Assembly: GCA_945917765.1 (NCBI GenBank) | Contig: CAMEHU010000002.1 | Span: 25,681 to 89,680 of the forward strand | Direction: 5' to 3' | DNA: 64,000 nt | Source: an uncultured Lachnospiraceae bacterium | GTDB taxonomy: Bacteria; Bacillota; Clostridia; TANB77; CAG-508 | Shown here: in pieces, positions 6,386-34,931 of the stretch | How positions within the stretch are numbered: the stretch's first letter is position 1 | Layout: every line of letters starts with the position of its first letter | Program-made: the position numbers and the translations under genes | Notes under the pieces: generated by a model | Told to the model about the DNA's origin: nothing | What the model saw: the letters and a program-made list of their open reading frames with translations, nothing else | Databases searched by the model: none

Positions 6386-7402
6386 TTAATTTAACTCAGC
6401 AAAATACTTAATAGTTCTAACCATTTGGCTAGTATAAGAATTCTCATTATCATACCAAGCTACAACTTGAACTTGATATAATCCATCTTCTATTTTTGTT
6501 ACTAATGTTTGTGTTGCATCAAACAAAGAACCATAAGTAATACCAATAATATCAGAAGAAACTAATGGTTCATCAGTATAACCATAAGAATCATTAGCTG
6601 CTGCTTTCATGGCTGCATTTATTGAATCAGGTGTAATATCATTTCCTTTTACAACAGCTGTTAAAATTGTTGTAGAACCTGTTGGAACTGGAACTCTTTG
6701 AGCTGAACCGATTAATTTTCCATTTAATTCTGGAATAACTAATCCTATAGCTTTAGCTGCTCCTGTTGAGTTTGGTACTATGTTACAAGCTGCTGCTCTT
6801 GCTCTTCTTAAATCACCTTTTCTATGAGGTCCATCTAACAACATTTGATCACCTGTGTATGCGTGAATTGTTGACATTATTCCTGATTGAATAGGTGCAT
6901 ATTTATTTAATGCATTTGCCATAGGTGCTAAACAGTTTGTTGTACATGATGCTGCTGAAATTATTGTATCTTCTGGTTTTAATATGTTTTCATTAACTCC
7001 GAAAACTACTGTTGGTAAATCACTTCCAGCAGGTGCTGAAATAACTACTTTTTTTGCTCCGGCATCTATATGTGCTTGGGCTTTTTCCTTTGTTGTGTAG
7101 AATCCTGTACATTCTAATACTACATCAACTCCAATTTCTCCCCAAGGTAATTCTTTTGCATCTGGTTTTGCATATATTTTTATTTCTTTTCCATCAACAG
7201 TTATTGAATCTTCTCCTGCTACAACTGTATCTTTTTTAGCATATGTTCCTTGTGCAGAATCATATTTTAATAAGTGAGCTAACATTTTAGGGCTTGTTAA
7301 ATCATTGATTGCAACAATCTCATACCCTTCTGCTCCAAACATTTGTCTAAAAGCTAGTCTTCCTATACGACCAAATCCATTAATGGCTACTTTAACTGAC
7401 AT
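6386..7402 (-). CDS. gap: type I glyceraldehyde-3-phosphate dehydrogenase
   Basis: [40 protein letters not shown]. Confidence 0.98.
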
Positions 7403-7603
7403 AAAAATTCCTCCTTCTGATGCATTTTTGCATCTCTAAAATTGCTTATACGCAAGCCAAAATCATTGTATACCAAAACAATTTACTTTTCAAGTATTCT
7501 TATCTATTTTTTCCCTAATTTGTTAAATTTATTCATGCACCAAAAAACGACAAAAAATGATGCTTATAATGCCTTTTTTAATCACATTATAAACATCACT
7601 TTA

Positions 7604-8038
7604 TTATATATTTATAGACCGTTTTTTAATACTTTCATAATAATTCAATAATTTTTGTTCCAACTCTCTTTTCTCAATATATGCTTCACTATATATTTCT
7701 CTATCATAGTTTTCTTCAAGATTTTCTTCTTGATTTTCTTTATTTTCATTATTCGCTTCATCATTATTTTTTTCGTTATCAACATTATCCATATTCTCAT
7801 CTCCTGGCCAATCATCATTATTATCAGCATCAAAATTATAAAGTCGTCTTTCTTTTTGTACATTTTCTTTTTGCTCATAATTTTCTAGATAATCTTGATT
7901 AAAATCTTCTTCTTCATTTTCAAACTCTTGATATTTAGATTTTCTATTCCAAAATGCTTTGGCAAAAAAATTCTTTATCTTTGTTAAAAAATTATCTTGA
8001 ACTACCACTAATCCCTTTTCATTCGTATAATTCCCCAT
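7604..8038 (-). CDS. hypothetical acidic protein
   Basis: ORF with Glu/Asn-rich C-terminus; likely start MGNYTNEKG. Confidence 0.55.
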   Translation of the reverse strand: MGNYTNEKGLVVVQDNFLTKIKNFFAKAFWNRKSKYQEFENEEEDFNQDYLENYEQKENVQKERRLYNFDADNNDDWPGDENMDNVDNEKNNDEANNENKENQEENLEENYDREIYSEAYIEKRELEQKLLNYYESIKKRSINI

Positions 8039-8149
8039 ATTTTGCTCCTCTCTTATTCCCATTATTACTTTATTATATAATAACATATATTTTTTAATTT
8101 GTAACAAATATTACAAATTGTAATATAAATTTAATATTTCTGTAATATT

Positions 8150-8704
8150 TTATAGCTCCATTTGAGTTCCTAAAAAACTTGCAGCAGATTGAACTACCTT
8201 TTGTTCAACTTCAGACATTTTTGTATTTTCATCTTTTGATAACAATATAACTGTTCCTATTACATCTCCGTCAGCAATTATTGGATATACTACTTGTGCA
8301 TTATTCTTTTTATTGTTTGTTTCATTTTTTGTAATTGGAATTGATACATCATTGTTTTCTTTACTTGTATAGTTTTCTTTTTCATCCATTATTTGCTCTA
8401 ATTCAGGGCTTATTCCTTGTTCTAAATATTCCTTTTTAGAACCTCCTGATACTGCTATTACTGTGTCTTTATCTGTTATACATGCAATATGCCCTGTTGT
8501 TTTTGCTAATGTTTCAGCATATTCTGTTGCAAATTCTGATAGTTCTCCAATTGGAGAATATTTTTTTAAGATTATTTCCCCTTCTTTGTCTGTAAATATT
8601 TCTAACGGGTCTCCTTCTTTTATACGAAGTGTTTTTCTTATTTCTTTTGGTATTACAACTCTACCTAAATCATCTATTCTTCTTACAACACCTGTTGCTT
8701 TCAT
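8150..8704 (-). CDS. spoVT: stage V sporulation protein T (AbrB-family regulator)
   Basis: MKATGVVRRIDDLGRVVIPKEIRKTLRIKEGDPLEIF AbrB domain plus GAF-like C-terminus. Confidence 0.93.
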   Translation of the reverse strand: MKATGVVRRIDDLGRVVIPKEIRKTLRIKEGDPLEIFTDKEGEIILKKYSPIGELSEFATEYAETLAKTTGHIACITDKDTVIAVSGGSKKEYLEQGISPELEQIMDEKENYTSKENNDVSIPITKNETNNKKNNAQVVYPIIADGDVIGTVILLSKDENTKMSEVEQKVVQSAASFLGTQMEL

Positions 8705-8811
8705 TTGTTTTCCTCCTTGTTTTTCAAAGTTTTATATTGTTAGTATTGCAAGAATTTACAAAATTATACGAAAAAAACTTTGAACAAAATTTGTTCAAAG
8801 TTTTTTATAAA

Positions 8812-9021
8812 TTATTCTTTATTATTCTTTTCTCCTAAACTTTGTGCAATATCCTTTTTCAAAACATATTCTGCTTCACTTCTTGTTCTAACAGTTGGAT
8901 CAATCTTTCTAGCTCTATCTATAATTCTTTTATGTTCCATAATGCCATAAATAAAACCACCTATTGCAACCATACAAGAAATAACTATGAAAACAATATG
9001 TCCAATTGAAAATCCCTCCAT
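8812..9021 (-). CDS. small single-TM hypothetical protein
   Basis: 69 aa ORF with N-terminal hydrophobic segment. Confidence 0.5.
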   Translation of the reverse strand: MEGFSIGHIVFIVISCMVAIGGFIYGIMEHKRIIDRARKIDPTVRTRSEAEYVLKKDIAQSLGEKNNKE

Positions 9022-9111
9022 ATTTAATCCCTCCTTTTCAAATTCAACGCTGTTTCATATCATATGAACGTTACAGTTTAACACAATATTTATCAAAAAA
9101 ATTATAAATAA

Positions 9112-9139
9112 TTGACAAAAAATTTTTTTATGATATACT
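9112..9139 (+). promoter_or_regulatory. sigmaA-type promoter of the peptide precursor
   Basis: TTGACA (9112-9117), 16 bp spacer, TATACT (9134-9139); followed by AGGAGG at 9178-9183. Confidence 0.8.
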
Positions 9140-9191
9140 AATATGTGGATTATTAATAATTCAAAAGCAAAAGATTTAGGAGGTACTTATA

Positions 9192-9365
9192 ATGAAAAGA
9201 ATGAGTGAAAAAGAATTAAAAAGAATAGATGGTGGAGTTGGATGTATAGGTTATGAATTACCTAGACCAAACGAAGATAGTTATATAAAACCATCTGATC
9301 AAAACGGTTTGTCTTCTAGTGGTTGGGGATTTGTTGCTTCATACTTTGGATATAAAAGACGTTAA
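9192..9365 (+). CDS. double-glycine leader bacteriocin/RiPP precursor peptide (57 aa)
   Basis: Read directly: MKRMSEKELKRIDGG|VGCIGYELPRPNEDSYIKPSDQNGLSSSGWGFVASYFGYKRR; AGGAGG 8 nt upstream; GG leader with E-8, L-7, I-4; next to a C39-peptidase exporter. Below the ORF-track size cutoff. Confidence 0.85.
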   Translation: MKRMSEKELKRIDGGVGCIGYELPRPNEDSYIKPSDQNGLSSSGWGFVASYFGYKRR

Positions 9366-9373
9366 TATAAAGA

Positions 9374-9406
9374 AAGCACTTAAGTTTATACTTAAGTGTT
9401 TTTTTA
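9374..9406. terminator. bidirectional intrinsic terminator between precursor and exporter
   Basis: agcacttaag-tttata-cttaagtgtttttttt. Confidence 0.85.
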
Positions 9407-11569
9407 ATGTAATACTTCCTTATGTTGGGTTTTCCATAATTCATAAAAAATTCCTTTTTTATTTATTAATTCATTTGGAGTTCCAATTTCTGTTATATAC
9501 CCATCTTTTAAAGAAATAATTTTATCACATTTAGTAAGTACATTTAATCTATGTGCAATAATTATTTTGATTGTATTTTTTTCAGCTGATAAATTATCGA
9601 CAATACCTTCTTCTGTTATTGTATCCAAATTACTTGTTGATTCATCTAATATAAGCACATCAGGATATGTGAGCAATGCTTTTGCTAAAGATAATCTTTG
9701 CTTTTCTCCTGTTGATAAATTTGTTGCTCCTTCTTCAATTTTGGTTTGTAATCCTAAGGCTTTATTATTTATATATTCTTTCATTTTAACAATATCTAGT
9801 ACTTTATTAACTTCATCTTCACTAACATTATTATTTCCAATTGTTAAATTGTTATAAATAGTATCTTGAAACCAAAAGTCGTTTTGAGAAACATATGTAA
9901 TTTTCTTTCTTAATGATGCTGTTGTTAAATTATTTATATTCTCATCATTTATATAAATTGCTCCATCTGTTACTTCGAAAAAATTTAATAAAAGTTTTAT
10001 AAGAGTAGTTTTTCCAGATCCACTTGAGCCAATTATTCCAATGCTTTCCCCTTCTTTAATATTAAAATTAATATTATTTAATATTGGTTCTCTTAATCCA
10101 TATTGAAATGTTACATTTTCGAATTCTATTCGTTTTATTTTATTTACTATTTCTCTTTTTTCTTTATTTAATTCATCTTCAGTAGTAGTCATAAAAACAT
10201 CATCTAATCTTTCTAATGCTGCATTTGTTTCATATAGTTTATCTTGAATTCTAATTATATATCCAATCGGTCCTAATAAATATCCCTGAAGTGTATATAA
10301 AAACATTAATTCTCCCATTGTTATTTTTCCAGTCATAACTAATGTTCCTAATGTTGAAAGCATTATTAATTGGCTTATTTGAATTATTATTCCTATCAAA
10401 CTACCTTGAATTGCAAATAACTTTTTTGTATTATAGAATAATTTTTGATAATTTTCATATTTATAATTCATGCTATTTTCCACATATTTTTCTGAATTAT
10501 AGCTTTTTACCGTTTCACTTCCTATAAAAGATGCACTTGCAAAAGAATAAATATCTGTAACAGATTTTTTTATTTTTCTTGTTTTTTCAATTGATTTATT
10601 TCCAAAAATCTTTTGAATTATTATTATTAATAGCATCATTACAAACGCTATGACTGCAATTTGCCAGCATCCTTTTATAAGTACTATTATTAAAGCAAAA
10701 ATTGCATACACAACATCAATAAGAAAGTCAGATGTATAATCTGTTATAATTGAACGAATTATATCTCCATCTTGAAACCTTGTAATTAAATCTCCAGATG
10801 TTCTTGAGGTAAAAAAGCTCATTGGAAGGTTTGTAATTCTATTAAATATATTTAATGTTAATTCTTTATCAAGTTTTTTTGTGAATTTTAAAGAAACCTT
10901 TAATTTTATCCAATCTACTGCAACAGTAAATATATATATTCCAATTATTATTAAAACCATCTGCCATAATAAATTTAATTTATATTGTGGTATAATAGTA
11001 TCTATAAAAAAAGAGTAAAAGCTTGCTGCTACAACACTTATTCCCGATATTATTGCCGATAAAATTATTAAAAAGATTAAGTGTTTTTTAAATTTTAAAA
11101 TTAGATCAAATATTAATTTATATGTTCTTTTATATTTTTTTATTTCTTTAAAATTTTCTTTTGGTTTAAATGTAAGTATTTCGCTTGTCCAAATTTCATT
11201 AAACTTGTCCCATTTCATGACTTGTTTACCTTCACTTGGATCTCCGATAACTACTGTATTTTCATTTGCCTCAAAAACAACTATATAATGTTGCTTATAT
11301 CCCTCAATTACAGTATGCACTATAATTGGGAAATTCACATTGCTGTTTAAAAGATCTTCTTTTGTTGCAAAAAAGGCGTCTGTTTCTAAATTCAATTTTT
11401 CTCCTGCTAATTTTAATGAATACATTGAATTGCCTTCTCTATCAGTCTTAGCAAATTCTCTTATTACTGCTAAAGATATGTTTTCAACTCCATAATAAGC
11501 ACATATCATTGCTAAGCATGCGACACCACAATTTTTCTCATCTGGTTGTTTGTAAATTTTGTATTTCAT
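9404..11569 (-). CDS. peptidase C39-containing ABC transporter (PCAT; bacteriocin processing/export)
   Basis: N-terminal C39 QPDEKNCGVACLAMICAYYG with HYIVVFE and GDPSEG; ABC TMD; Walker A GSSGSGKTT; LSTGEKQR signature; LILDEST. Confidence 0.95.
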   Translation of the reverse strand: MKYKIYKQPDEKNCGVACLAMICAYYGVENISLAVIREFAKTDREGNSMYSLKLAGEKLNLETDAFFATKEDLLNSNVNFPIIVHTVIEGYKQHYIVVFEANENTVVIGDPSEGKQVMKWDKFNEIWTSEILTFKPKENFKEIKKYKRTYKLIFDLILKFKKHLIFLIILSAIISGISVVAASFYSFFIDTIIPQYKLNLLWQMVLIIIGIYIFTVAVDWIKLKVSLKFTKKLDKELTLNIFNRITNLPMSFFTSRTSGDLITRFQDGDIIRSIITDYTSDFLIDVVYAIFALIIVLIKGCWQIAVIAFVMMLLIIIIQKIFGNKSIEKTRKIKKSVTDIYSFASASFIGSETVKSYNSEKYVENSMNYKYENYQKLFYNTKKLFAIQGSLIGIIIQISQLIMLSTLGTLVMTGKITMGELMFLYTLQGYLLGPIGYIIRIQDKLYETNAALERLDDVFMTTTEDELNKEKREIVNKIKRIEFENVTFQYGLREPILNNINFNIKEGESIGIIGSSGSGKTTLIKLLLNFFEVTDGAIYINDENINNLTTASLRKKITYVSQNDFWFQDTIYNNLTIGNNNVSEDEVNKVLDIVKMKEYINNKALGLQTKIEEGATNLSTGEKQRLSLAKALLTYPDVLILDESTSNLDTITEEGIVDNLSAEKNTIKIIIAHRLNVLTKCDKIISLKDGYITEIGTPNELINKKGIFYELWKTQHKEVLH

Positions 11570-11614
11570 TTCTGTGACTCCTCATACTATTTGTACTTTG
11601 ATGTTATAATATTT

Positions 11615-12112
11615 TTATATATTATGCAAACATATTAATTCATTTAGATACTTTACTTTTATTTCTTCAGTATTTTTTCCAAAAAATTCTTTTGAATAAA
11701 TTTTTCCTAATAATTTATAATTATTTTCCTCTAAATATTTATACATTCCTTGTTCATTTTCAACTACCAGACCAACACATATATCCGCTTCTTTATTTAT
11801 TATTTCATTATACAAATATTCTAGCGAAAAATAATTATAAAACATATCACCCATTTCAATAAACATTACATATTTGTTTTCTGTTTTATCAATAATGCTA
11901 TTTAAATAATTTTCTCCTTTGCAATTTATTACTTGAATATTTATTTTTTCTTTAAATGTTTCTGCTTCACTTAAATAATCTTCATTAAACGAACTATCTA
12001 CTAAATATATTTTTAATTCATCTTTTATTGATTGCCCACAAATTGACAGAAGTGTTTTTCTTAAATCTCCATTACTTTGATGTTCTTTTGGTGTTATAAT
12101 TATATCTATCAT
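11615..12112 (-). CDS. truncated/degenerate GT2-like protein
   Basis: N-terminus aligns by eye with the two neighbouring GT2s but has IEMGDMF where they have MDSDDV/IDSDDV, and lacks the C-terminal half. Confidence 0.7.
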   Translation of the reverse strand: MIDIIITPKEHQSNGDLRKTLLSICGQSIKDELKIYLVDSSFNEDYLSEAETFKEKINIQVINCKGENYLNSIIDKTENKYVMFIEMGDMFYNYFSLEYLYNEIINKEADICVGLVVENEQGMYKYLEENNYKLLGKIYSKEFFGKNTEEIKVKYLNELICLHNI

Positions 12113-12113
12113 A

Positions 12114-13112
12114 TTAGGCCTCCTGTATTAAATTAATAAAATCATCGAATGATATAGATATATATTTAAGTGAAATTCCTCTGTTTTGAAAACTTTCTAT
12201 TCTTTTTTCTATAATCATTTTTTTAGTTTTTTCATCTTTTACTGAATATTTCTCATATATTTCTTTCATCTCTTTCAATTGTTTTAAAAACATTTTTGAA
12301 TTATTTATATTCATATATCCTATATAGTTAAAATAAAAATTCACCATATATTCCAATGCAGTTTCTGATATTTTTTTATATGAACATTTATCATTAATAG
12401 CTGTTTCAAGTGCATTTGTAATGTTATAAATATAATTTATAAAAAATTTTAATTTAAACTCATCATTTTTTGTCCTTGTTAATGAATTTTTGTTAAAACA
12501 CCATATGTATGTTATATCATCTATATATTTTATTTTTGAATCATATAAAAAAACTTTACGATTAAATCCTACATCTTCATTATATCTTGTATTATTAAAT
12601 CTTATTTTATTTGTTTCTAAAAAGCTTCTTTTATATATTTTTCCATGAACCCATGTCATATCTTCAAAATGTTCAACCATTTCATTATTTTCAAGTTGTT
12701 CTAAAAAGCTTGAAACAACCAAGTCATAGTCGTTATCTTTAATTTCATTATATAAAGTTCGAACTTCACTTGGTCCTGCCAAAACATCGTCTGAATCCAT
12801 AAAAATAATATATGGATTATTTGAATTATCAATTCCATATTGTCTGGCTATTCCTGGGCCTGAATTTTCACTTAAATTCAATTCTGTAATATTCATAAAT
12901 TTTTTAAAAAAGTTTACTTGTTCTGAATAATCATTATCCGATTTATCATTTATTATATATACATTTATATCTTTTATGTTTTCTTGATATGCAATGGAAA
13001 ACAGAGTTCTATCAATTGTTTTATGTGCATTATATGCAGGTATTATTATGTCTATCATTTTTTCCTCTTTTTTATATGTTTTAATCTTCGATTTTTTCAA
13101 TAAACTCATCAA
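12114..13112 (-). CDS. glycosyltransferase family 2 protein
   Basis: MIDIIIPAYNAHKTIDRTLFSI..., FMDSDDV DxD motif. Confidence 0.92.
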   Translation of the reverse strand: MMSLLKKSKIKTYKKEEKMIDIIIPAYNAHKTIDRTLFSIAYQENIKDINVYIINDKSDNDYSEQVNFFKKFMNITELNLSENSGPGIARQYGIDNSNNPYIIFMDSDDVLAGPSEVRTLYNEIKDNDYDLVVSSFLEQLENNEMVEHFEDMTWVHGKIYKRSFLETNKIRFNNTRYNEDVGFNRKVFLYDSKIKYIDDITYIWCFNKNSLTRTKNDEFKLKFFINYIYNITNALETAINDKCSYKKISETALEYMVNFYFNYIGYMNINNSKMFLKQLKEMKEIYEKYSVKDEKTKKMIIEKRIESFQNRGISLKYISISFDDFINLIQEA

Positions 13113-14004
13113 TTGTCATTTTGGGTGTTTCTTTACCATATATGAAATCCATCAAATATCCTATTTTATATTTTTCGGGTAAAATGTCAAAATACTCTTT
13201 ATGTCTTTTTTTCAATTTTGAAAGATCTTGAAACACAAATGATAAATCAATGTCTTCTTCATTATATACATATTTTGAATAACCATATAATATTGTATGA
13301 TATATAAATCCTGCAATATTTTCAGCATCCAAATTTCTTTTTATACATTCCTCAACAAGCCATGTATACGCATATATATAGTTTTTTAGATTTTGATAAG
13401 TATCTGTATGACCTTTTGTTATTGAATCAGGATTATAATTGTATTGATAAATAATTTTTTTGGTTTGTGCTATGTGATTACAACAATTCATATATAAGTA
13501 ATTAAATACATTATCTTCATGGTTTCTTGCATCACAAAATTTTATAGAATTTTTTTCTATAACACTTCTTCTATACATTTTTCCGTGCAAACATCCTTTA
13601 AATATTCTAATATAATTAAAAACACCTTGAGGCTTTTCTTCTATAATCGCACCTATAATAAAATCTTTTTTACCAATTTTTTTATATAGATTTGCTAATG
13701 AGTGTTTATTATAAAAAACATCATCAGAATCTATAAAAACTATATATTCATTTTTCGATATATCTAATCCCTTTTGCCTTGATAATCCTGGTCCAAGATT
13801 TTTTTCATTTCTTATTATTGTTATATCAAGTTTGTTTTCAAATAATTCCAATAAATAGTTATAATCTTTTTGACTATGGTCATCTATTATATATACTTTA
13901 ACTAGCTTTTTTAACGTTTGCTTTTCTATACTTAAAAGAGTTTTTACTATAGTTTTATGTGCGTTATATGCTGTTATTATTATATCAATCATTTTGTCCT
14001 CCAC
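13081..14004 (-). CDS. glycosyltransferase family 2 protein
   Basis: MIDIIITAYNAHKTIVKTLLSI..., FIDSDDVF, NHEDNVF. Confidence 0.92.
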   Translation of the reverse strand: MEDKMIDIIITAYNAHKTIVKTLLSIEKQTLKKLVKVYIIDDHSQKDYNYLLELFENKLDITIIRNEKNLGPGLSRQKGLDISKNEYIVFIDSDDVFYNKHSLANLYKKIGKKDFIIGAIIEEKPQGVFNYIRIFKGCLHGKMYRRSVIEKNSIKFCDARNHEDNVFNYLYMNCCNHIAQTKKIIYQYNYNPDSITKGHTDTYQNLKNYIYAYTWLVEECIKRNLDAENIAGFIYHTILYGYSKYVYNEEDIDLSFVFQDLSKLKKRHKEYFDILPEKYKIGYLMDFIYGKETPKMTIDEFIEKIED

Positions 14005-14481
14005 CTAATATATAGTTTTATCACGCTTTTCAGCAAAGCTCTCAAAAGTTTTTATTGTTTCTTCTCTATCAATACAATTTAATTCTAACACCTCATTATC
14101 TTCAACTTCATCAGTTAATTTTTTTATAAAACTATAAATGTAATCATCTCTAAATCCAATGTTTGCAGCATCTTCTTTAGTGTTTCCGTAATAAACCTTT
14201 TTAATATTAGACCAAATTATTGCTGACAAACACATAGGACATGGATAGCATGAAGTATATAATTCACATTCACTTAAATCATATGAATTAATATTTTTAC
14301 ATGCATCTCTTATTGCCATTACTTCAGCATGAGCTGTTGGGTCATTATTACTTAAAACATGATTTGACCCCTTTCCTATTATTTTTCCATCTTTTACAAT
14401 ACATGCACCAAAAGGTCCTCCAACATTTGTTTTCAAATTATTTTCTGATAATTCCTTTGCTATTTTCATATATTCATTCAT
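14005..14481 (-). CDS. nucleoside/guanine deaminase (CDA superfamily)
   Basis: TAHAEVMAIRDA and YTSCYPCPMCLSAIIWSNI zinc-binding motifs; guanine-deaminase-like. Confidence 0.88.
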   Translation of the reverse strand: MNEYMKIAKELSENNLKTNVGGPFGACIVKDGKIIGKGSNHVLSNNDPTAHAEVMAIRDACKNINSYDLSECELYTSCYPCPMCLSAIIWSNIKKVYYGNTKEDAANIGFRDDYIYSFIKKLTDEVEDNEVLELNCIDREETIKTFESFAEKRDKTIY

Positions 14482-14515
14482 ACTTCATACCTCCTATTTG
14501 ATACTTTCCTGAAAA

Positions 14516-15079
14516 CTAATCCACAATTTCCTCTAAAACCCAATCATAGTCTCTCAAAACATACACACTTCCACAATATTCACAAACTCCATTTTTGTTT
14601 AGGTCAATATTTGCTCCACATCCTGTACATTTTCTAGCATTTCCAAGAGCTTTTGCATTTTTTATTTTTGAGAATTTAAGTTTAACATATTTTTCTGTTC
14701 TAACATCTCTATTACCATCTATAAATTTCTTAGTATCTTTGGCTATTCTATAATCTAAATATTTAGTTAACAATTTTACATCAATTTCAAATCTATCATC
14801 AAATTCCTCAATATTTGTTATTGTAGTATCTGAAACATTTAATTCATCATAAACTTGAATTTGATTATTTGCTTGTAATTGTTTTATTTTACTACTATAT
14901 TTCTCATATACTTCATCAGATAAAAAGTGTCTAATATTCTCTAAATTTTGTTTCATAACTCCTGTGTATAATTTTATATAAACATTATCAACTTTTGCTT
15001 TAAATTTTGCCTCTGAAAATTCTTTGTCTTCATTAATTAAATTATTTAAAACCTCACTCATTTTTGTTTCTCCCTTCAT
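14516..15079 (-). CDS. zinc-ribbon, TIM44-like domain protein (YdjG-like)
   Basis: C-terminal CTGCGANIDLNKNGVCEYCG zinc ribbon after a TIM44-like region. Confidence 0.65.
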   Translation of the reverse strand: MKGETKMSEVLNNLINEDKEFSEAKFKAKVDNVYIKLYTGVMKQNLENIRHFLSDEVYEKYSSKIKQLQANNQIQVYDELNVSDTTITNIEEFDDRFEIDVKLLTKYLDYRIAKDTKKFIDGNRDVRTEKYVKLKFSKIKNAKALGNARKCTGCGANIDLNKNGVCEYCGSVYVLRDYDWVLEEIVD

Positions 15080-20087: not shown

Positions 20088-21602
20088 TTATTCTTCAGCT
20101 TTTAAATACTTGACAAAACTTGTTACACCTATCATTGAGAAAAATACAATTCCCACAATTAATCCTGTATTATTAGCACCTGTTTGTGGAATTTCTTTTA
20201 CAGCTTTATCTGCATAATTATCATTGTTAGTCATACTATTTTTTACATCATTGTTAGCTTCATTTCCTTTTAGAAGTACATTATTTTCTAATAATTCTGT
20301 TTTGTTTGTTGTATTATCTGCTGATTTTTTTTCAGCTGAATTATTTGGCAATAACTCTTTATAATCATTGCTGTTGTTATTATTGTTATTATTGCTGTTG
20401 TTATTGTCTATACTATTTCCACTATTATTGCTCTCTTTATTATCCTTTTTATTATTGCTATCATTTTGATTGATATTGTTTTGAATAATATCATTATTTT
20501 TTCTTTCTAGTAAAGATTTTAGATTATTTTCAATTAATTCAAATTTATTTTTTGTTTTTGAATTATCCTCTTTATTTTCGTTATTAGTAACTTCATTATT
20601 TATTTCTTCAACAATATCTTGATATTCATCATTATTGTTTTTATCTTCTTTTTTTATGTCAATAACCATAGGTTTATCATCTTCTGATACTTCCACATTT
20701 TGCTTTTCTTTTACTTGCTCTTGATTTTTATTTTCTTCTTGTTTCTTTGCTTCTTCTTGTTTTCTTGCTTCCTCTTGTTTTCTTGCTTCCTCTTGTTTCT
20801 TTGCTTCTTCTTGTTTTCTTGCTTCTTCTTGTTTTCTTGCTTCCTCTTGTTTCTTTGCTTCTTCTTGTTTTCTTGCTTCTTCTTGTTTCTTTGCTTCTTC
20901 TTGTTTTCTTGCTTCTTCTTGTTTCTTTGCTTCTTCTTGTTTTCTTGCTTCTTCTTGTTTTCTTGCTTCTTCTTGTTTCTTTGCTTCCTCTTGTTTTCTT
21001 GCTTCCTCTTCTTTATTTATTTCATTTTGTTCTTGATTTCCAGCAATCTCTTCTTTAACTTCTTCGCCTAATTCATTTTTATCAACTTCAACAACTTCTC
21101 CAATAGTACGAGATGCTACTAAAGCTTTTATATACTCTTCAACACCATCTTCATTTTTTTGTTTTATTATAACTACTGCATAATATTTACCTGGTTTATT
21201 AATTTTAATTGTATCTTTTATTGTTGTTGAATTAATTGTTACAACATCTTTGATTGCATTTTCAATACACCAATATGCTAAATCATCAATATTATTTTTT
21301 GAAGGAACAGGTTTATCTGTTGATACCCAAAATAATAAACTATTCATATATTTTTCTGATATTGAACCATTTGCAGTTATTTCTTTTGTGTCAGGATTAT
21401 ATTCTGTTGACAAATTTGCAATTTGTTCTGTTGTATCTGCTATTGACAACATTGGTAATATCAGATTAGCTACTAACATAAAAACAATTGTCATTGATAT
21501 AATTGCTGTGTACTTATACATTTTTTTATTTAATTCCATAAATAAATCCTCCTTTTTTATAACGACTGCGAATATTATAACATATTTTTCCAGTATTTTC
21601 AA
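20088..21602 (-). CDS. sortase-anchored surface protein with EEA(R/K)KQ repeats
   Basis: Signal peptide, hexapeptide repeats, C-terminal IPQTG + TM + positive tail. Confidence 0.85.
   Translation of the reverse strand: MKILEKYVIIFAVVIKKEDLFMELNKKMYKYTAIISMTIVFMLVANLILPMLSIADTTEQIANLSTEYNPDTKEITANGSISEKYMNSLLFWVSTDKPVPSKNNIDDLAYWCIENAIKDVVTINSTTIKDTIKINKPGKYYAVVIIKQKNEDGVEEYIKALVASRTIGEVVEVDKNELGEEVKEEIAGNQEQNEINKEEEARKQEEAKKQEEARKQEEARKQEEAKKQEEARKQEEAKKQEEARKQEEAKKQEEARKQEEARKQEEAKKQEEARKQEEARKQEEAKKQEENKNQEQVKEKQNVEVSEDDKPMVIDIKKEDKNNNDEYQDIVEEINNEVTNNENKEDNSKTKNKFELIENNLKSLLERKNNDIIQNNINQNDSNNKKDNKESNNSGNSIDNNNSNNNNNNNSNDYKELLPNNSAEKKSADNTTNKTELLENNVLLKGNEANNDVKNSMTNNDNYADKAVKEIPQTGANNTGLIVGIVFFSMIGVTSFVKYLKAEE
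20735..21015. repeat. in-frame 18-bp tandem repeat (15 hexads)
   Basis: Alternating ttgttttcttgcttcttc / ttgtttctttgcttcttc units encoding EEARKQ/EEAKKQ. Confidence 0.92.
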
Positions 21603-34736: not shown

Positions 34737-34931
34737 ATGAAAATAATAAATACTATTGCTTTATTGTTAGTTATAATCGGTGGCCTAAACTGGGGATTAG
34801 TTGGTTTATTTAATTTTAATTTAGTAGATTTCCTATTTGGTGAAGGTTCTATATTATCTAAAATAATATATATTTTAGTTGGTATTTCAAGTTTATGGTG
34901 CATTAGTCTTTTTGCCAAAATATTTGAATAA
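34737..34931 (+). CDS. DUF378 family membrane protein
   Basis: MKIINTIALLLVIIGGLNWGLVGLFNFNLVDFLFG. Confidence 0.88.
   Translation: MKIINTIALLLVIIGGLNWGLVGLFNFNLVDFLFGEGSILSKIIYILVGISSLWCISLFAKIFE

Follow-up and report, generated by a model that had tools for sequence, protein, structure and literature searches.

A double-glycine leader peptide gene convergent to a PCAT exporter: a candidate bacteriocin precursor in a variable island of an uncultured Clostridia lineage

Within a 64-kb window (the whole stretch of DNA that was analyzed), the gene for a 57-aa precursor peptide, which has a promoter of its own as well as a ribosome-binding site and a terminator, lies convergent to a gene encoding a PCAT exporter with intact C39 catalytic residues. 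The peptide begins with a 15-residue double-glycine (GG) leader, and GG-leader ORFs with the same leader length occupy the equivalent position at two orthologous PCAT loci. We consider it highly likely that the GG-leader precursor and the PCAT are a genuine pair. That the peptide is truly a substrate of the PCAT is very probable, because its leader fits the consensus, such an ORF is expected by chance only about 0.02 times per 64 kb, and the same slot is filled at the orthologous loci L013 and L014. The exported core is probably a linear, unmodified, class IId-like bacteriocin.

Precursor gene, exporter and variable island

The features of the locus are as follows.

8705..14515, no strand: variable island of 5.8 kb, between an AbrB/SpoVT-like gene (8150-8704) and a Tim44-like gene (14516-15079)
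8812..9021, minus: 69-aa protein with a single transmembrane (TM) segment, divergent from the precursor; the island's one small membrane protein and a weak immunity candidate
9112..9139, plus: putative sigma-70-type promoter, TTGACA (9112-9117), 16-nt spacer, TATACT (9134-9139), with TGA just 5' of the -10 (extended -10); sequence reading and scoring
9178..9183, plus: ribosome-binding site AGGAGG, 8 nt 5' of the ATG; direct reading
9192..9365, plus: 57-aa precursor peptide gene, ATG at 9192, stop ending at 9365; sequence reading and rarity counts
9192..9236, plus: 15-aa double-glycine leader MKRMSEKELKRIDGG; direct reading, with equal leader length at two PCAT orthologues
9237..9362, plus: predicted 42-residue core VGCIGYEL...GYKRR, ~4.7 kDa, pI 8.1, one Cys
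9377..9398, no strand: hairpin between the convergent peptide and PCAT genes, terminator for both, with T7 next on the plus strand
9404..11569, minus: PCAT, 721 aa, with C39 peptidase, ABC membrane and ATPase domains; domain and profile searches
11615..12112, minus: GT2a, 165 aa, short and without DxD; a probably inactive GT2-like protein
12114..13112, minus: GT2b glycosyltransferase; closest solved folds TarP/TarS
13081..14004, minus: GT2c glycosyltransferase; domain and profile searches
14005..14481, minus: nucleoside/guanine-deaminase-like protein, first gene of an operon-like run ending in PCAT

The first-pass annotation of this DNA had described a strong promoter belonging to the peptide gene itself, an AGGAGG, a 57-aa ORF and a terminator, and direct reading finds each of them in place. 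The promoter scores 11/12 and is the sole site with that score plus a TG among the 71 promoter-like sites between 8600 and 16200, which makes it the top of its 7.6-kb region. Promoter-like sites overall are not enriched there (71 found versus 62.1 expected from shuffled sequence), so that for the precursor promoter only quality and placement count as information. Markov-shuffled sequence yields 0.02 ORFs per 64 kb that combine a ribosome-binding site with a leader of the (I/L/V/M)xGG type; in the actual sequence of the window there are the precursor and one hydrophobic false positive at 34737. With a strict leader-type DNA pattern, which we judge to be narrower than the family because the L014 leader escapes it, the precursor site was the single match in 244 related genomes, and control matches numbered 0.

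The leader carries M-12, S-11, E-8, L-7, I-4 and GG, so that positions -4, -7 and -12 are hydrophobic. The consensus residues named in the first-pass annotation are thus all there, and the NCBIfam bacteriocin leader model TIGR01847 gives 15.4 bits, narrowly below its cut-off of 15.7. The core likewise reads as described, with 42 residues, one Cys and a YKRR end; its unmodified mass is about 4702 Da, its charge is weak (+1) and it is fairly hydrophilic. The first-pass annotation did not recognize it as a named bacteriocin, and searches of core and precursor against known bacteriocin families (Pfam, NCBIfam) gave leader-level sub-threshold matches only, with the core unmatched. No core homologue was found in plasmids, phages, viral contigs or some 150 related genomes, and a direct search with the 57-mer that covered IMG/VR as well as plasmids, phages and related genomes likewise returned none. 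Weak 57-mer matches in related genomes fell mostly within long unrelated ORFs and were set aside. Genome G000 was searched by pattern and by protein. The precursor sequence is most likely new, and its general kind, a small GG-leader bacteriocin, is well known.

The exporter gene lies immediately convergent to the precursor, as had been claimed. Its product matches PCAT1 over the full length (3.6e-129), and the aligned orthologues all keep the catalytic residues Q8, C14, H94 and D110. No HlyD-type accessory protein is encoded in the island, and PADLOC matches were dismissed as generic ATPase or deaminase matches.

The operon-like series runs from the deaminase gene through GT2c, GT2b and GT2a to PCAT. 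By sequence comparison, the island block spans the 69-aa membrane protein through the deaminase gene. In two close relatives, G009 and G002, about 90-120 bp separate the Tim44-like gene from the AbrB/SpoVT-like one and the island is empty, and in G005 and G006 the gap between them holds other cargo; the block is therefore variable cargo at a chromosomal hotspot. This integration hotspot, at 8705-14515 of the window and at L047-L056, is empty or carries differing cargo across the genus. Matches of up to 98% between the AbrB/SpoVT-like gene at the flank and genus relatives place the contig in the genus. Elsewhere in the window, 20088-21602 encodes a surface-type protein that contains a long KEEARKQEEA repeat and has a C-terminus of PQTGANNTG followed by a TM segment.

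No immunity gene is established beside the precursor, the 69-aa TM protein being the sole candidate in the island. A homologue of this protein in G014 (57%) lies in a different variable region that holds no bacteriocin genes, which weakens the case for it as the cognate immunity protein.

PCAT orthologues and the convergent slot

Orthologues of the PCAT are rare. A pattern-based scan of 85,488 species genomes, with a reach of close relatives only, recovered five true relatives with 49-60% identity; a sixth match was a distant ATPase and was dropped. Among 391 genomes of the order, orthologues occur in four genomes besides the window's own, and the two sets overlap largely. The convergent slot was judged in L013 and L014; L016 and L028 are cut within PCAT, and the contigs of L015 and L017 are too short. 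L013 (= L019) shares its family with the genome of the window, L014 (= L008) belongs to another family of the order, and both are from other genera.

Both orthologous loci with sufficient downstream sequence (2/2) have a GG-leader ORF convergent to PCAT, each with a ribosome-binding site and a leader of exactly 15 residues (MKKLDDKDLKKVDGG in L013 and MKKMSDAKTKKVKGG in L014), in agreement with the pairing of GG precursor and PCAT proposed from the window. The L014 leader fits less well because its -7 position is Thr. The core is 42 aa in the window and 55-61 aa in the L013/L014 analogues, and no significant similarity was detected among any of the three. Conservation of the ORF alongside the PCAT, on which the first-pass annotation had staked its reading, thus holds for the leader and the convergent slot at L013 and L014 and fails for the core sequence. 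Since the window core is unconserved wherever it was searched, what persists is the leader and the arrangement, not the product. A fixed leader and slot with unrelated cores is the pattern that would be expected of fast-diversifying bacteriocins, with the strength of the pairing argument limited by the small set of three loci.

All PCAT orthologues except that of the window adjoin a paralogue of pyrimidine-nucleoside phosphorylase whose phosphate-binding loop is altered (HPIGGMDDK in L014). These paralogues (L013:7710-8984, L014:7713-8984, L015:5727-7010, L016:7708-8979, L028:1287-2561, L017:1720-3024) score under the NCBIfam equivalog cut-offs. Several phosphorylase-PCAT loci also carry a small TM protein; in L013, L015 and L017 it has one or two TM segments and lies 3' of the PCAT/phosphorylase genes, and no counterpart was recognized in the window. 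At the contig end of L017, the first bases of the 3-1730 ORF are MRHCDWSSDVCSSDL, which resembles an assembly adapter artefact.

Alternative readings of the peptide

The three GT2 genes raise the possibility that the peptide is a glycosylated bacteriocin, to which GT2b and GT2c would add sugars prior to export, at Cys3 or in the SSSG stretch. They adjoin PCAT in the same island and operon-like run, GT2b and GT2c retain DSDD motifs, and every known glycocin pairs a GT2 with a PCAT (PMC12457901). In GT2a the DxD motif is absent, as is most of the C-terminal part. Profile and fold searches, the latter with a model of mean pLDDT 68 whose C-terminal 70 residues are unreliable, point to teichoic-acid and polysaccharide transferases, with TarP, TarS, RmlT and GalT1 as the closest solved relatives; SunS was absent at E<=0.01 in the profile search and from the top 50 Foldseek matches. 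No GT2 genes were found near the PCAT orthologues, and on the stretches seen around the GT2b homologues in G007, G250 and G282, which have other contexts, there is neither a PCAT nor a GG peptide. The GT2-PCAT association is local to the window's locus. Glycocins require two nested disulfides and hence at least four Cys, and the single Cys of the core excludes these. Membership of the glycocins was therefore rejected for want of a SunS-type transferase, of further Cys residues and of a conserved GT-PCAT-peptide linkage, and the hexose modification by the GT2 enzymes hinted at in the first-pass annotation is not supported. A sugar on the peptide is possible, with gene order as its sole positive support, and we rate the glycosylated reading as quite improbable. 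A particular form of it, a linear disulfide-free glycopeptide bacteriocin whose SSSG or Cys would be decorated by a teichoic-acid-transferase-like GT2 pair recruited to the PCAT operon, is very improbable; if true, such a peptide would fall outside the glycocin family. The peptide might also be a GG-leader pheromone of the ComC/BlpC/EntF kind, which the PCAT would export as a cell-cell signal rather than a killing agent. Signals, like bacteriocins, are among the substrates that PCATs export (PMC7018657). The gene is compact with its own promoter, and this peptide or its analogues show a weak leader-level resemblance to EntF/ComC-type models. However, typical pheromones are shorter than 42 aa, a length reached by the window core and exceeded by its analogues, and no histidine kinase, response regulator or Rgg-type gene lies beside the peptide in the window, L013 or L014, so a signal is unlikely.

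That the ORF is a chance or decayed frame and is unexpressed would accord with a core without homologues and a metagenome-assembled genome. This reading is extremely improbable given the co-occurrence of consensus promoter, ribosome-binding site and terminator, a leader that fits all consensus positions at the chance expectation given above, and GG-leader ORFs in the equivalent position at two PCAT orthologues.

Homologues of the window GT2 proteins also occur among WXG100-like (type VII secretion) genes, at L026 (G007:C10) 6773-14597, L063 (G250:C64) and L064 (G250:C43). One of them is apparently part of a fusion, in a protein of 771 aa whose N-terminal region is non-GT. Glycosylation may possibly be tied to type VII secretion at these loci.

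Proposed function and comparison with known systems

For the preferred reading, a linear unmodified bacteriocin, we infer transcription of the precursor, its cleavage and export, and antimicrobial activity. The ORF would yield a precursor with the 15-aa double-glycine leader; the convergent PCAT would bind the leader, its C39 domain would cleave past Gly-15, and the PCAT would then export the 42-residue core. The core would act on competitors of the producer, as a bacteriocin carried on a horizontally variable island. Among class II candidates from gut genomes, 16/26 synthesized peptides were active, which gives a fair prior for activity (PMC12648078). Weighing against this reading are the missing core homologues, the lack of a confirmed immunity gene and of a HlyD-type protein in the island, the weak charge and hydrophilic character of the core, and the restriction of the comparison to two loci. 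If active, the core would be a bacteriocin of new sequence from an uncultured Clostridia lineage. Mining of gut genomes has already given 82,806 high-confidence class II precursors with 6,238 distinct mature sequences (PMC12648078), and with tens of thousands of candidates known, one more alters little alone. The small PCAT subfamily, with one convergent slot, a constant 15-aa leader and a swapped core, offers a simple signature for finding more peptides.

A pediocin-like class IIa peptide (YYGNGLYVDV) with a C39 transporter and then a 454-aa gene was seen in L027 (G010:C27) 9544-13546. This transporter belongs to a different subfamily (34%) and was set aside; its contig carries duplicated mobilization and replication genes and is likely a plasmid or a bin contaminant in the G010 metagenome-assembled genome.

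Glycocins (sublancin, glycocin F, enterocin F4-9) share with the window a GG-leader precursor beside PCAT and GT2-type genes, but the window locus lacks a SunS-type transferase, has one Cys and does not keep its GT2 genes with PCAT. GG-leader pheromones (ComC, BlpC, EntF) share the leader type and C39 export, and differ in that the window locus has no nearby two-component or Rgg regulator and a longer core. PCAT1 of Acetivibrio/Clostridium thermocellum (PDB 4ry2 and others) is alike in full-length architecture and C39 catalytic residues, and is also a single-protein exporter with no accessory gene nearby, although the window PCAT forms a separate subfamily and the substrate cores are unrelated. 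In comparison with class II (IId) GG bacteriocins, the window core matches no known family, the layout is convergent, and the locus has no identified immunity or accessory gene. What it shares with them is the short GG leader (M/L-12, S-11, E-8, L-7, I-4, GG), a small Gly/aromatic-containing core and a dedicated PCAT adjoining the gene.
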